Assembly (NCBI GenBank): GCA_951394045.1
Contig: OX595986.1
Location: 992,001 to 1,056,000, forward strand
Origin: Nitzschia sp. DOCU1
Taxonomy: Eukaryota; Bacillariophyta; Bacillariophyceae; Bacillariales; Bacillariaceae
DNA: 64,000 nt
Direction of reading: 5' to 3'
Shown here: piece after piece, positions 29-62,392 of the stretch
How positions within the stretch are numbered: the first letter of the stretch is position 1
How the letters are laid out: each line of letters opens with the position of its first letter
Notes under the pieces: model-generated
What the model saw: the letters and a program-made list of their open reading frames with translations, nothing else
What the model was told of the DNA's origin: nothing
The model's database searches: none
Made by a program: the position numbers and the translations under genes

Positions 29-3000
29 TCAAGTATCCGAAACGCCCTGCTTTCTCCACAGATCGTAATAAATCCCCTTCTTTGCTAGCAATTCGTCATG
101 TTTTCCGTACTCGACGATTCCACCATGTTCAAGTACTGCAATCTTGTCGCAGTTCTTGACAGTCACGAGACGGTGGGCGACCACTAGAGTTGTCCTGGGA
201 TGCTTCTCTCGCATGTCATCTAATGCAGCCTGAACAACGCGCTCGCTCTCGTTATCCAAAGCCGAAGTTGCTTCATCTAAGACCAGAACTGGTGGGTTCT
301 TGATGATGGCCCTAGCAATGGCGATTCGTTGCTTCTGGCCGCCACTCAAGAGGCTACCTCCAGGGCCGATCTCTGTATCATAGCCGGACGAAAGCGACGA
401 GATAAAATCGTGGGCGTTTGCCATTCGCGCTGCTTGGACAATCTCTTCTTCGGTTGCATTCCGTTTGCCCATTAGTAAATTTTCTCGAATTGTCCCGGAG
501 AAAAGGACTGGCATTTGGCCGACATACCCAATCTTGCTGCGTAGCCACGCCAGGTTCAACTCTTTGACATCGTGATGATCGACAGATACAAATCCAGACG
601 ACGATCTGTAGAATCGAAGCAGAAGTTGGAGAGCAGTGGACTTTCCTGATCCGGATCTGCCCACAAAAGCCACGCTCTGGGCTGGAGAGATTGCTAGATT
701 GAAACCATCATGGCCCTCCGAGGGATAATAGATGGGATGCCCTGGTCTTGTCGGATAGGAGAAGTGGACCGACCGGAAATTGATGCCACCGCTAAATGCG
801 TCCGGCTTGGACCCGTTTTGACTGAGTGGGTCATCTTCGTCCAGAGGCGCGTCGACAATTGCAAACAAACGAGCAGCGGCGGCTAATCCTTTGTGATTGG
901 AACCGAAATCTGCACTGACCTGGCCGATGGCAATGGCCGAAAACATGATTGCAAGCAAACTGGCGAAGAATTCCGTGAAGCCAACTTTTGCTTGCAGCAT
1001 GAATTCCACTCCGGCATAGAATAACAAGCCAAATGTTCCAAAGACAGCACACTGAGAAATTCCGAAGACCAACCCGGCATAAATCCCCTGTTTGACTTTG
1101 CTTTGGGAGTCAGGGACCAGTGCATTACAGTACTGGTCGCCAACTAGTTCTTCAAATCCGTACGCTTGAACAAGGCTAATTTCTCTCAAACCCTGCTCAA
1201 GAATTGTCGCCGAGGAAACCCCGTCCTGCTCAATAACCTTATTCCGGGTACATGCCGCTTGAATAAATCCCGAACCGACAATCAACGGCATGCACGCAAG
1301 AGCAATAAGACCAATCTGCCATGAAAATACCATTGAGATTATCAATCCAGAGATCATCGAAGACAACACTTGAACTTGCTGTCCAAGGGACCACCCTGTC
1401 ACTTTTGATACCATCTCAGCATCCTCTTCCAGTCTGGTGGTTAGTTCCCCGGTGCTATTCTCCGGAAAGTCGAACCACGCCACGCTGTGACGAACAATTT
1501 TATCGAAGACTAGGACCCTCATTCGGCGTGACAACCGAAACCCAGAGACGGAGAATCCACACCCAAGTGCGGCGTTTCCAAGCAACGAAACTCCTCCCAA
1601 GGCCAGGAAATAGAAACAGAGCGGGCGATTCTCTTCTTTCATTGTTTCTGAGTCGAGTTCGAAGAAGTTCGCTGTCAGTCGAGCGAAAAGAATTCCCTCA
1701 CATGGTGGCAAAGCACCGACGCAGATTGCTCCGACTAAACCAAGCAACAGATAAGCCCATTCATCCTTGTTTTGTTGCCATAGTCTGAAGAAACTCGCCA
1801 CCTTCTCGTCTTCGGGCTCACCCCCGTCGACTTTAGCTGCTTCAAGATCGTTTTCGTTGCCGAGTGCCATATGGCTCCCTTTCTCCACGCCGGAGGCTTC
1901 TTCTGCCGGAGCCGTTTCCTCAGCTGAGACACCAATCTGAGATTCGGCTGAGATTCCTTGCGATTTGCAGAGAAGTCCATAAATGCCTCCTTGTTCAATC
2001 AAACTCTTGTGACTGCCAAGCTGTTGAATTGAACCGTCGGCAATGACTGCAATCTGATCGCTAGATATGATTGTCGACAAACGATGGGCGACAGTGACCG
2101 TGGTTATCTTCTTGACTTTTCGAAGGCCGGCCAAGGCTTGTTGGACCGATTTCTCAGAGCTGGCGTCAAGAGCACTCGTGGCCTCGTCTAAAATCAAAAT
2201 AGAAGGATTACGAACGAGAGCTCGGGCAATCGCAATTCGTTGGACTTGTCCTCCACTCAATTGCATTGAGGCTCCGTTGTAAAAAGTATCGTATCTTTCG
2301 GGCAAATCCATAATAAAGTCGTGCGCAGAGGCTGCCTTGGCAGCAGCAACTATTTCGTCGTCGGGAACGTCCACGCCACCGTTCTTGCCCATTGCGATGT
2401 TGTCCCGAATGGTGCCGGGGAAAAGGGAAGGCGCTTGCTGGACGTAGCCAATCTGAGATCTCCACCATTTCAAATTCAAATCCGTGAGGGGAGTACCATT
2501 GGCCTCAACCCTTCCAGCAATTGGGTCGTAGAATCTCAACAACAGCTTGGAAATGGTACTTTTGCCAGATCCAGAAGGGCCTACGAGAGCGACAGAGCTC
2601 CCAGGGGCGATTCGGAGGTTGAATCCATTGAAGAGGATGCTTTCGGGGCGCGAAGGGTAAGCAAAGGTCACGTTCTTGAATTCGAGGGACCCATCGTAAT
2701 TTTCCATGACAACACCGCTATCGTTTGACGAAGCATCGATTTCCGGCGTCCGCTTGATAGCTCCAAATATTTCGACGGCCGCAATGCGTCCAAGATTGAC
2801 CGCTTGGATCCCGGGTGTCATAAGAGCGAAGAATTGAGCACAGAGAATGACACCGTAGATGCACCTGGAAAAAATCGGTTCTCTTGGTGAGACCGCCAGA
2901 ATAGACACTGTAACAGCGACATTTCGCAATTTGACTTACACCATGACCTCAGAGCCGCTAACGCCGCAGTAGTTGATGATGCAGTAGAATGGGTTAATTT

Positions 3001-4194
3001 TTGACTCGCCGACAGCTTCTGTATTGGCAACCTGTTCTGATCCCAACAAAAACGCAATGGTGTATGTAGCATAAAAGAGCAATCCCATAACACCCGATGC
3101 GACCCTTGCAAGAAAACCGCTCAAAATACTGTGGCGCTGCCCTTGCCGAACCATGATTTCGTATTTCTTTGCCGCCCACGATTCAGCATTTAGTGAAGAG
3201 ACGGTCTTGATAGCAGAAATAACTTCCGAGGCGAAAGCCCCCGCTGATGCAAACATTTCTAGTGCCAGCCCACTGCGACGGCGCATGAAAATAGAAATTA
3301 TCGCAATGGCGACAGCTACAATAGGCAGAACACAGAGCATGATCAAAGCCTGAAAAAGTTAGTGAAACAAGCAGATGATTAGAATGAACGATGCTCCCGG
3401 TGACTACTGATTGGAATCGGTAAACTTACCAAGGGAGCATTCAGACCGATGGCCACTGCTAAACAGCAAACTGCTGATAACAGGTTGCCATAAGTATCCA
3501 TCATTTGTCTCCCAATGGCACCATTAATCTTGACAAGAGCATTTGATGCGTAAGCCGGCAATTCTTGTGGGTCTCCTCGTTTGTCAAACCAGGCCGCCTC
3601 TTGCTTAAACGACGCTCGAACAAACTTTTCTCGAATGCGCAAGGCTTGCTTCTCGCCAGTGTACGTCCATATGGCAACGTATCCTGATCCTACTATCAAG
3701 GAGACACCTCCAACTGCACCAAAGAGCCAACACAATTGATAAAGCTGGCTAAGGAGCAAATCCATAGTAGCCTCGCTTCCAATGGTACTGACAAGAACGC
3801 CGATACTGTTAAAAGTTTCCAGTGACTTTGCCAACAACAGCAGCCAAGCAGGCATCGACAAACCTGATACGGTCGCGAGAACCATACCTCCCAACATGAG
3901 ACGAACTTCTTGTTTAGTCGCAAACGAAAGAAGGGTCAACATGCGGACCTTGGGGACAGTTTCTTTCTCGTCGGAGGCTCCAGGCCCCAGCCGGGCCAGT
4001 TGCGCCATCTTTTTGGCATGGTCCTCCAACCAGTCGACAACAGTCTTGATGACATCCGATTTTGAGCTTGCCACGAGAGGAAGAGCTTCTGCATTGGCTT
4101 TGCGGACGGATTGAAAATAGCTTGGAGATTCCTTGGCAGGCATCGATGGCCGCTTGCCACTTGGTCGAGTGACCGACTTTGGACGAGAGCTCAT
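29..4194 (-). CDS. ABC transporter, full-size ABCB/MDR type
   Basis: Full-length ATP-driven exporter of the P-glycoprotein (ABCB) group, about 1336 aa. Exons on the minus strand are 4194-3430, 3349-2940 and 2864-29; both introns (80 and 75 bp) have GTAAGT donors and CAG acceptors and keep the frame. The order is TMD1, NBD1, TMD2, NBD2. NBD1 (about residues 450-690) has Walker A GPSGSGKST, signature LSGGQ and Walker B ILILDEATSALD. NBD2 (about 1090-1330) has GRSGSGKST, LSGGQKQR and VLVLDEATSALD. Both have the switch motif VAHRL, so both sites look competent. The start is the first ATG in frame (MSSRPK). The N-terminus before the first membrane span is long and basic. The substrate cannot be read from sequence. 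It is divergently arranged with the kinase gene at 4942. Confidence 0.93.
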
Positions 4195-59010: not shown

Positions 59011-59588
59011 GCATCGGCGCAATCGGTCCAGTCGTCTATGCTAGCACAGGGTATCTGCAATCTTGCGTAACTCGCACCACCGCTTTTCTCATGAATGCGT
59101 GACCGATCACCCGGCCTATGAAACTAATTGCCAAATCTTAAAATAAAGGATGCTGTCGGTATGAATAACAAGTCGATTTCTCTACTAGCAGGGAAGGGCA
59201 CCATAGTAGTCAAAGTGTTCGTTCAGCCCGGCACCATCCAATTCGACCAGTAAAGCTAATAATGACCGCTGTCGGCAGCAAGTAAACTGAGTTACCGCTG
59301 GTGGTAATCTACTACGATGATATTAGCTACAGTAGTACCACTATGAACGCAGCAAAGCTAGCTAATAGTAGAGCAGTTTTGTCGCGGGCTTTGGTTTTGG
59401 ATCTTCACGTCGTGCGGGCGCGCCGGCAACCCCAAGATCTTGAATTGGTTGCAAGATAGCATAAAGCTGCCTGGGCAAAATGCCGCGTCTGTTTTGATTC
59501 CAAAACTTCTCAGGATGAAGTAAATGCGACTACTCCTCAGCTCAATCTCAATCATGCTACTTTCACCAGACACATAAAAACCAACGAA
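59011..59588. other. Intergenic region
   Basis: 578 bp; no coding frame or repeat I can support. Confidence 0.5.
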
Positions 59589-60119
59589 ATGGGGTTAACG
59601 GAAATCTTCAAAGACAACAATGGCGCAGTGGAACAGGCCCGCTTGCGAAAGCATGTTGCACCGCGCCAGGCAGTGGAATTGGGCACGATTGAGTACAAGA
59701 ACTTGACCGAAGACGGTCGCCATGGTGACTATGCGAAGGCCCTCGATGCAGCTAAGGAAAGTGGAAAGCCCATCTTTGCTAACTTTGTCGAGTGGAGTGG
59801 ATGACAAGGGTGCAAAGATGCGGGTCGGATTTTCGCCGACTCAATCGTGAAAAGGGCAGCAGAGGAATTGTTCGTCCCTGTTGCTTTCAACACGTGGGAC
59901 CGTTCAGACGTGTGTCGGAACCAGCCCATGCGCCAGTGGGGAGCAGGGTTGGCATCTAGCTGATGGGGGTACCTCAGAATCGTTGATTCTGAGGGCAAAG
60001 TAGTCGTCAATGGCACCCGCCAACTCACATCTTTTCGGCAAATAGACGAAGTCAAGCAGGTTATGCGTGAAGCGCTTGACGAACTGGGAGAAGATGTCCC
60101 GGAGTACCTCCAATCGTAA
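59589..60119 (+). CDS. Thioredoxin-like protein with two in-frame TGA codons, probable selenoprotein
   Basis: 176 aa from ATG 59589 to TAA 60117-60119, reading TGA at 59802-59804 (residue 72) and 59961-59963 (residue 125) as selenocysteine. The first TGA sits in FVEWSG-U-Q-G-C-KDAG, a U-x-x-C redox motif right after the strand GKPIFANF, where thioredoxins have C-x-x-C. After it come IFADSIVKRAAEELFVPVAFN and, past the second TGA, WGYLRIVDSEGKVVVNG and a helix QIDEVKQVMREALDEL, matching thioredoxin-fold elements. Coding character is continuous across both TGAs. Stopping at the first would leave 71 residues lacking most of the fold. No targeting signal. A weaker SECIS-like hairpin lies at 60148-60215. 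A decaying gene is the main alternative. Confidence 0.78.
59802..59804 (+). other. In-frame TGA 1, predicted selenocysteine (U-x-x-C)
   Basis: TGA followed by CAA GGG TGC gives U-Q-G-C in the position of a thioredoxin C-x-x-C. Confidence 0.75.
59961..59963 (+). other. In-frame TGA 2, predicted selenocysteine
   Basis: TGA between GAGLASS and WGYLRIVDSEG. The frame is continuous for a further 51 codons. Confidence 0.6.
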
Positions 60120-60346
60120 GGAGAACAAGAGTAGATTGATTAATCAAGCCAGAACTATGAATGACCGTAAATGGTTTGCTCGTCGACGACCACTACGCGA
60201 ACAGAACTGTTCTGCTAACGTAATAGTCAGCAACGTTTGTCATTTTCAATTACCTCGCCAAAAGTAAATCAGAGGAACTGTGAAAACTGCTAGAAGCAGC
60301 AAGGAGAGCATATTGACAAAGGTATTGCTTTCAGCCAGGGCTCTAA
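60120..60346. other. Convergent 3' region
   Basis: 227 bp between the selenoprotein-like and P58IPK genes; holds the SECIS-like hairpin. Confidence 0.5.
60148..60215 (+). promoter_or_regulatory. Candidate SECIS element of the thioredoxin-like gene
   Basis: Begins 29 nt after the TAA. Helix I: GCCAGAAC against GTTCTGC (one bulge). Quartet: ATGAC (60161-60165) on the 5' side and CGAA (60198-60201) on the 3' side. Helix II: CGTA/TACG and TGGT/ACCA with a small internal mismatch; 13-nt loop. Weak points: no AA or CC in the apical loop, and the competing palindrome CAGAACTGTTCTG. Confidence 0.45.
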
Positions 60347-61910
60347 CTAACCCATTTTAAAGTGAAAGTGTTGGCCGCCGCCCCCACCGAACCCACCGAA
60401 ATGTTGATTGAAGAACTGGTGAGCATTCATGTGGTGTGCTCCCCCACCTCCGCCCTGATTCTCAAAGACAGCTTCTCCACGGTCATATTTGGCTCGTAAC
60501 TCCTCGTCGGACAAAACTTCGTATGCTTCTCCAATATCTTGGAACCTGCAAAGATACAATAACACGTTAGCCACCAAATCGTCTCATTTACCGTTGCGCC
60601 ATATTAGAATGAACTTACATCTTTTCGGCTTCCTCCTTGTTGTCGGCATTCTTATCGGGGTGCCACTTGAGAGCCAATTCTCGATATGCCTTTTTGATCT
60701 CCTTACCAGTCGCCGTACGTGAAATTCCCAGGATTTTATAATAGTTCTTTTCCTTGCTTTGCTTGAGCGCGACTTCAGCCTCTCGGATCCTTTCATTTGC
60801 TCTTTGCCGATGTTCGCTATTCTCAGGAAGGTTCTGTGCAGCATTTTGAAACACTCGAAGGGCTTCATCAAATCGCTCTGCCGCAGTCAGGGCATCTCCT
60901 AGTGCCCACTCGTATTCAACAGATCCGCCCTCTTCGACCAACGTTTGTGCTTCCTTGACGGCCTCATCATGCTGACCAAGCTTGGAATGGGCTTGAATAA
61001 TCTTCAAAACAACCGGCTTTGCAAACGCTCTATGTGTTGTATCAATGTTGATGGCTTCCCAATATTTCTTGATGGCCTCTTCAAAGTTCCGAGCTTCGAA
61101 GGCTTCGTCGGCCTTCTTTTTCTTCTTTTCAATGTTCTTGACAAATTTATGTGCCGATTTGCATCCCTTGTGCTCAGGATCGAATTTCAAAGCCTCTCGA
61201 AAATGCTGAATTGCCAGATCGTGTTCGCCCAGCCTCATGTACGCATTGCCTCGCAATTCGAAGGCTTCCAAATGTTTGGGGTGGACCTTTAGAATTTTGC
61301 CAGTATCGCTAATAACTCCATAGTAGTCACCTGTATGAAACAATGCAGTTGCCTTGGAAAAGAGTAGATCACTGGCTTGTTCTACATGCCGCATGACGCT
61401 GGAATACATGTGCGCTGCCGTCCCGTAATCCCCTTTTGCCAAGGCATCCTGCGCCATGTTAATCTCACGCTCGCACTCTTTGGCTTCTTCCAAAAGAACC
61501 GCCACATCTTCATCTCGGATTTCTTGATATTCAATAACGGCTCGATCGCATTGACCTAGTGATTTCAATAGTTTCGCCTTTTGCACTCGATACGATCCAT
61601 TGACAGGATCCAATTCCAAGGCCGTCGTAATGGCCGCCAGGGCCTCGGCATATTTACGCGCTCTGGAATGCACGCGGAATATTTGAAAGTAGTTACTAGC
61701 ATTTTCGGGTTCCAAATCGGCAGCCATTTTATACAGTTTGAGCGCCTCGTCAAAGTCTCGCAGCGACAAGGCCTCTTCTCCACGCGAACGCAGCTTTCCC
61801 GGTGACCAGTTGTTCATGTCATTGCGATTCTCTTGGGTCGTCCCTTGGCCATTGGCGGACGCCGCCAAGTACATTAACGAAGCAAAGGCAACGCGACGTA
61901 GATTCGTCAT
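60347..61910 (-). CDS. DNAJC3: ER co-chaperone P58IPK/DNAJC3 homolog (TPR plus J domain)
   Basis: 496 aa; exons 61910-60619 and 60545-60347, one 73 bp intron (GTAAGT/TGCAG) inside the J domain. A signal peptide ([21 protein letters not shown]) starts at ATG 61910. About nine TPR units cover residues 35-385 (e.g. [49 protein letters not shown]). The J domain (about 398-465) has [21 protein letters not shown] and the HPD triad in LKWHPDKN. A Gly/His-rich tail ends FHFKMG without an ER retention signal. The family stimulates the lumenal Hsp70 BiP and holds unfolded proteins in the ER. Confidence 0.92.
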
Positions 61911-62392
61911 TATAATCACTGAACACTTAAATTGAAGTTACTCTCGAGTCGCTTTGCTATTGCAAAAGCAAGGTCTTCTCAGAGGATAATCGCAAATCAG
62001 GTCACGTGAAAATGACGAGCGGCAAAAGAGCGAAAATGGCAGATGTCGTCGTTTTTGGAAGTCTCGAGAAATCGGTGCGGTCGACGAGATTTTCCTTTCC
62101 GCCGCGATAAGTAGAAGAATCGCCCAAGTAGAAACCACGAGCATTTTGTACTGAGAGAACCAGGACAGGCCAGCAGGCCGCTGGCCAGCAACGGTCATTG
62201 CCACGTGGCGCCATCTTATGGCTCCCCATAGGTTGGTAACCCAAAGCTACGACCATTTCGATCAAACTCGTTTGGTCGAGTCAGTCAATTCGTGCAGGCG
62301 TCGTCGTAGTGGTCTGTTCAGGGTATCAGGCAGCTACAGAACTATATCACAAATCATAGTAGAAACTCTATGGCTAATCTGCTACCAAGCAA
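61911..62392. other. Intergenic region
   Basis: 482 bp between two minus-strand genes; nothing recognised. Confidence 0.5.

Follow-up and report, generated by a model that had tools for sequence, protein, structure and literature searches.

The stretch of DNA analysed here, hereafter the window, spans 64,000 nucleotides of the diatom Nitzschia sp. DOCU1 (assembly GCA_951394045.1, contig OX595986.1, positions 992,001 to 1,056,000, forward strand), and carries a small gene for a thioredoxin-like protein whose reading frame crosses two in-frame TGA codons, a candidate for a selenoprotein with two selenocysteine (Sec) residues. As the preliminary description had proposed, the frame runs on across both codons, which stand 53 residues apart at residues 72 and 125 of a protein of 176 residues, in the motifs U72-Q-G-C75 and SUWGY (Table 1). 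The nearest in-frame stop upstream is a TAG at 59457, and the G+C content at third codon positions is alike in the three segments of the frame (0.59, 0.62 and 0.55). Openness of the frame is nevertheless weak evidence by itself: one of the minus-strand frames over the same stretch contains a single stop, with a 108-codon open reading frame at 59729-60055. It is homology, as judged from sequence comparison, that decides whether the two-TGA frame is real. A search of the host genome (52.08 Mb in 63 contigs) with the two-Sec protein gave a single match.

Table 1. Positions in the window of the thioredoxin-like gene, its coding features and the candidate Sec insertion sequence (SECIS) element.
Feature	Position	Strand	Remarks
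Coding sequence of the putative two-Sec thioredoxin-like protein	59589..60119	+	176 residues plus TAA; no intron needed
ATG start codon	59589	+	Opens the 176-codon frame
First in-frame TGA, putative Sec72 of UQGC	59802..59804	+	From the frame and the homologue states at 72
Cys75 codon, partner in the U-x-x-C motif	59811..59813	+	C75 in at least 90% of 23 alignment rows
Second in-frame TGA, putative Sec125	59961..59963	+	Two residues ahead of the position aligned with the Thioredox_DsbH cis-Pro
TAA stop codon	60117..60119	+	End of the frame
SECIS candidate	60147..60216	+	Core GAATGAC at 60159-60165, short two-part helix, CGAA at 60198-60201; plausible, not proven

Homologues are numerous. The protein search returned 35 matches, 24 of them with query coverage of at least 80% and identities of 45-77%; the alignment search returned 106, and a third search, among the 7,993 candidates sharing most words, at least 55, adding five new homologues that include P0109-P0111, which end at residue 71. 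The named relatives, Seminavis robusta (P0068) and Epithemia clementina (P0026), are both diatoms, the former annotated as an 85-residue 'expressed unknown protein', and a profile of the family alignment found no relative in the viral contigs and genome contigs searched. Across the 106 homologues, 59 records end exactly after residue 71, 23 have Trp at residue 72 and nine have Cys. One of these nine, P0045, is doubtful, as its sequence departs from the family right after residue 72; P0046 and P0063 depart just after residues 72-74, in an intron-like manner. Three near-twin pairs, each joining a record that ends at residue 71 to one with Trp, are identical at 84 of 86, 108 of 113 and 77 of 82 aligned residues (94-98%). 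TGA is the sole codon read as stop in genetic code table 11 and as Trp in table 4, and codon 72 in these pairs must therefore be TGA. I take the Trp forms, on the strength of the protein records, to be probable table-4 translations of TGA, for which gene calling of the Prodigal type under that table would account. The database relatives appear to be mostly cut short, the first Sec codon having been taken for a stop.

The second site shows a related pattern. Three relatives (P0027, P0065 and P0108) end exactly at residue 124, and among the 106 homologues residue 125 is Trp in 29, Asp in seven and Cys in one. Both sites could be scored in 28 homologues, which are Trp/Trp (21), Cys/Asp (six) or Cys/Cys (one). 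This last relative, P0036, has the Cys at both 72 and 125 that had been named beforehand as decisive. Past TGA125, residues W126, G127, Y128, L129, R130, V155, L163 and P171 are invariant or at least 90% conserved in the relatives. The preliminary description had also considered a loss of conservation past the TGAs, a frameshift or a sequence error; none of these was found, and the sequence is conserved beyond the TGAs in many relatives.

The history of the two sites was followed on a tree of 36 rows, built with sites 72 and 125 masked, in which 29 family rows split from seven bacterial rows with support of 100/100. The Cys/Asp state requires four changes, at least three of which are forced by well-supported branches, and a single clade for the six Cys/Asp rows is disfavoured (approximately unbiased test, p-AU 0.0195). 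For instance, P0015 and P0018, which are Trp/Trp, share a group with P0016, which is Cys/Asp, with support of 99/97. Sec/Sec thus appears to have given way to Cys/Asp at least three independent times on this tree. In the well-supported independent pairs both sites changed jointly in three of three, too few for significance (p 0.25), and long branches (P0026, P0040, P0037, P0036 and others) make some places in the tree unsure.

The predicted fold of the protein matches solved thioredoxin-fold structures. A profile search of the PDB with the family alignment gave no match at 0.01. Alignment puts the U-x-x-C motif at the place of the thioredoxin C-x-x-C, so that both the fold and the motif hold as first described. 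Residue 125 aligns two residues before the cis-proline (cis-Pro) of the Thioredox_DsbH proteins, and Gly127 is aligned with the cis-Pro of 7tkv. Mammalian thioredoxin presumably offers a parallel in Cys73, a reactive chalcogen two residues before the cis-Pro, as at residue 125; there, however, the residue is Cys and not Sec, in a different family with the classical WCGPC motif.

The host has Sec machinery, the components found being tRNA-Sec, SecS, SelD-like and eEFSec genes. Five tRNA-Sec genes score above the Rfam cut-off, with a model that also rings in all 14 control genomes, E. coli among them (above cut-off in five of the 14), and ARAGORN assigns the anticodon tca in five genes across the two loci scanned. 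These genes (L002-L006) lie at G000:C5:639526-640069 and G000:C6:887673-887758, four of them in tandem; multiple tRNA-Sec copies are also reported for the diatom Fragilariopsis cylindrus (PMC5330540). There is a SecS gene, and of two SelD-like genes one has a TGA (SPS2). The eEFSec gene has the Sec-specific elongation factor 5izk as its best PDB match (5.8e-86), and the bacterial SelB model stays below its cut-off in the host genome. Two eEFSec-like coding stretches, L025 and L026 (G000:C5:3467569 and 3472669), are separated by about 5 kb, and for each of them 5izk is the best match in the PDB. An in-frame TGA is present in at least seven host genes of known selenoprotein families, namely three of the four GPX matches, one Rdx/SelT-like gene, SPS2 and two MsrA genes. 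Two further MsrA matches have a TGA, and two PF13911 matches were seen with one TGA and one TAA.

A SECIS-like hairpin with an ATGAC/CGAA quartet had been described after the stop codon. Such a hairpin exists (its partners are ATGA at 60161-60164 and GA at 60199-60200), and its GAATGAC begins 42 bases past the first base of the stop. GAATGAC occurs 15 times in the window on both strands, a chance of about 2% for a given 200 bases. For comparison, eight hairpins with an AATGAC core and a 3' TGA were collected from the 3' regions of seven host selenoprotein-family genes; seven of the eight have GAATGAC. They were found with a replacement SECIS scanner, the first having failed to bring out the comparison elements, and the AATGAC motif was spotted only after the scan and was not used in ranking. 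Ranked without the motif, the AATGAC hairpin comes first in L013, L014 and L018 and second in L015, L021, L046 and L047. Rfam SECIS_1 had no match in the 3' region or the genome, which shows little, since none of the 14 control genomes rang in the genome search. MAFFT left the eight comparison hairpins unaligned at their 3' cores. I consider the candidate plausible, on moderate evidence only. After the host SPS2 gene (L021) come two SECIS-like hairpins that resemble each other, and then a third AATGACAAGGCAAGC copy, which has no 3' GA partner at the expected place (L021:2717-2788, 2940-3007 and 3241-3308). Downstream of the window gene lies a converging neighbour on the minus strand (60615-61919), a TPR protein with a C-terminal DnaJ domain.

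I conclude that the protein very likely carries two Sec residues, and that the locus is probably a nuclear gene for a thioredoxin-fold selenoprotein in which both UGAs are decoded and Sec125 works with Sec72. The observations behind this are the frame, the conservation past both TGAs, the Cys/Cys relative, the host Sec machinery, the fold and the repeated joint replacement; from these I infer actual Sec insertion, the SECIS, the closeness of the two Sec residues, and the chemistry, substrate and location of the protein. It would be a small selenoprotein, probably soluble, in which host tRNA-Sec and eEFSec decode both UGAs, directed by a SECIS in the 3' untranslated region for which the hairpin above is the candidate. 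In the U-x-x-C oxidoreductase site Sec72 would make the attack and Cys75 would resolve it. Sec125 would lie in the loop expected to face the redox motif in thioredoxin folds, presumably close to Sec72, and would most likely act as a second redox selenol, to which the oxidised state of Sec72 passes as a diselenide or selenenylsulfide. It is possible, and I propose it only tentatively, that both Sec residues belong to a single coupled site spanning two loops, the U-x-x-C motif and the cis-Pro loop, with a built-in diselenide or selenenylsulfide relay, and that they are lost as a pair; on this reading the several independent replacements of Sec/Sec by Cys/Asp would mean that a carboxylate can stand in for the second Sec. 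No selenoprotein with such a two-loop coupled Sec site is known to me, and the literature searches turned up none.

Several observations weigh against the two-Sec conclusion. The TGA codons of the Trp-form relatives are deduced, less directly at 125 than at 72, and P0027, with Cys72 and an end before 125, breaks strict coupling. The SECIS candidate, the part of the original description that is only moderately supported, has an unexceptional fold (z -1.09, with 18 of 200 shuffles folding at least as well). Its 3' core reads CGA, against TGA in all eight of the comparison elements, of which seven outscore it and one (L015) scores below it; 11 of the 70 AATGAC sites in the window fold or score as well, and two further hairpins within 1.58 kb are lower in energy, but lack the motif.

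Other explanations of the TGAs fare worse against the homologues. That the Trp forms are real Trp proteins with TGG codons, the TGAs being read as Trp in this lineage, would agree with the Trp/Trp state of 21 of the 28 homologues scored at both sites; it is very improbable given that 59 of 106 records stop at codon 72, three of them near-twins of Trp records, that a Cys/Cys relative exists, and that the host has Sec machinery and TGA in known selenoprotein families. I give still less credence to the view that the gene is a pseudogene, or its sequence erroneous, and that the two TGAs arose by chance: stops or Trp occupy the same codon positions in independent records, and these come from many sources. 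A more limited proposal is that only TGA72 encodes Sec, the protein really stopping at TGA125 after 124 residues, or TGA125 being read through in some other way. Non-Trp relatives are mostly not Cys at 125 (Asp in seven, Cys in one), the bacterial kin have Ala or Ser there, and only three relatives end at 124, all of which were counted for this proposal; residues 126-176 are however conserved in relatives, without them the fold would lack its final strands and helix, and P0036 has Cys at 125, which together make an end at TGA125 improbable.

A different role for the second Sec deserves more consideration, namely that both are Sec but that Sec125 serves by its negative charge, the selenolate acting on the active site as a carboxylate would, and not by redox chemistry. 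Six of the seven Cys72 homologues scored at both sites have Asp at 125, and this state arose repeatedly on well-supported branches, as described above. Asp is nevertheless not obligatory, P0036 being Cys/Cys and P0027 combining Cys72 with an apparent stop at 125; several Asp rows (P0024, P0026 and P0040) sit on long branches, and the test of coupled change rests on only three independent pairs. I regard a purely electrostatic role as unlikely, and retain the reading in which both Sec residues take part in redox chemistry.

The gene adds a two-Sec thioredoxin-fold family, found in two diatoms known by name and in numerous metagenomic records, whose members annotation pipelines mostly end at residue 71 or print with Trp. 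The family makes it testable why a small protein pays for two UGA recodings, and whether a Sec placed in the loop opposite the active site acts by redox chemistry or electrostatically.

Among described algal selenoproteins, a survey names 42 families (PMC7539508), and its text gives as multi-Sec cases PDI_e, two-Sec SELENOJ and SELENOW, most with a thioredoxin fold. The arrangements differ: PDI_e has adjacent Sec in GUGUU, a motif that the window protein does not have, and SELENOW has UxxU, whereas UQGC and SUWGY lie 53 residues apart here. No multi-Sec case matching the window protein appears in the parts of that survey consulted, which did not include its supplements. The UGSC family, once printed USGC there, was considered as the same family and dropped, the abbreviation list reading UGSC. 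A thioredoxin-fold selenoprotein of Thalassiosira and Ostreococcus is also algal, with bacterial selenoprotein homologues, and was compared by description only (PMC2375036), so that it could be the same family; in the accessible part of that source two Sec are ascribed to MSP only. A two-Sec family like this one is not described in the literature searched, supplements and selenoprotein sequence databases being outside the scope. I regard it as a new two-Sec family of eukaryotes, 'Hypo' and 'TlpA' (PMC7539508) and the PMC2375036 protein being known by description only.

Classical thioredoxins have WCGPC and a cis-Pro, where the window protein has SGUQGC and Gly127. It shares its fold and the place of the redox motif with Thioredoxin_7 (PF13899) and with Thioredox_DsbH/DUF255 (PF03190), but stays below both gathering cut-offs (23.1 and 14.9 of 27 bits, respectively); the relative P0036 clears that of Thioredoxin_7, at 28.9 bits. 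A scan of genome contigs with the bacterial alignment gave 18 loci, of which 10 were translated. In planctomycete loci L055, L056 and L062, from metagenome-assembled genomes, an in-frame TGA lies in a thioredoxin-like U-x-x-C motif just after base 3001, and these are further candidate bacterial selenoproteins. The closest described kin appear to be the bacterial VPGUxxT thioredoxin-like selenoproteins of type 2 (NF041383), listed as hypothetical protein OS_HP5 with one Sec per protein in a table of PMC13188914. The thioredoxin-like domain is homologous (E 1.3e-12, about 30% identity), and the Sec/Cys position of the bacterial proteins aligns with U72; the window protein reaches 48 bits, over model positions 9-132 of 287, against a cut-off of 275. 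The bacterial rows have VPGC where the window protein has WSGU, and the residue aligned with U125 is Ala or Ser. They are also longer, about 290-340 residues with a C-terminal extension, whereas the window protein ends at 176 without one. In two of them (P0104 and L049, Rubripirellula obstinata) the C-terminal stretch is MsrA-like (PF01625, 20.2 of 23.7 bits; PDB MsrA, 1.3e-04), which merely hints at methionine-sulfoxide repair as a possible partner of this thioredoxin-like domain.
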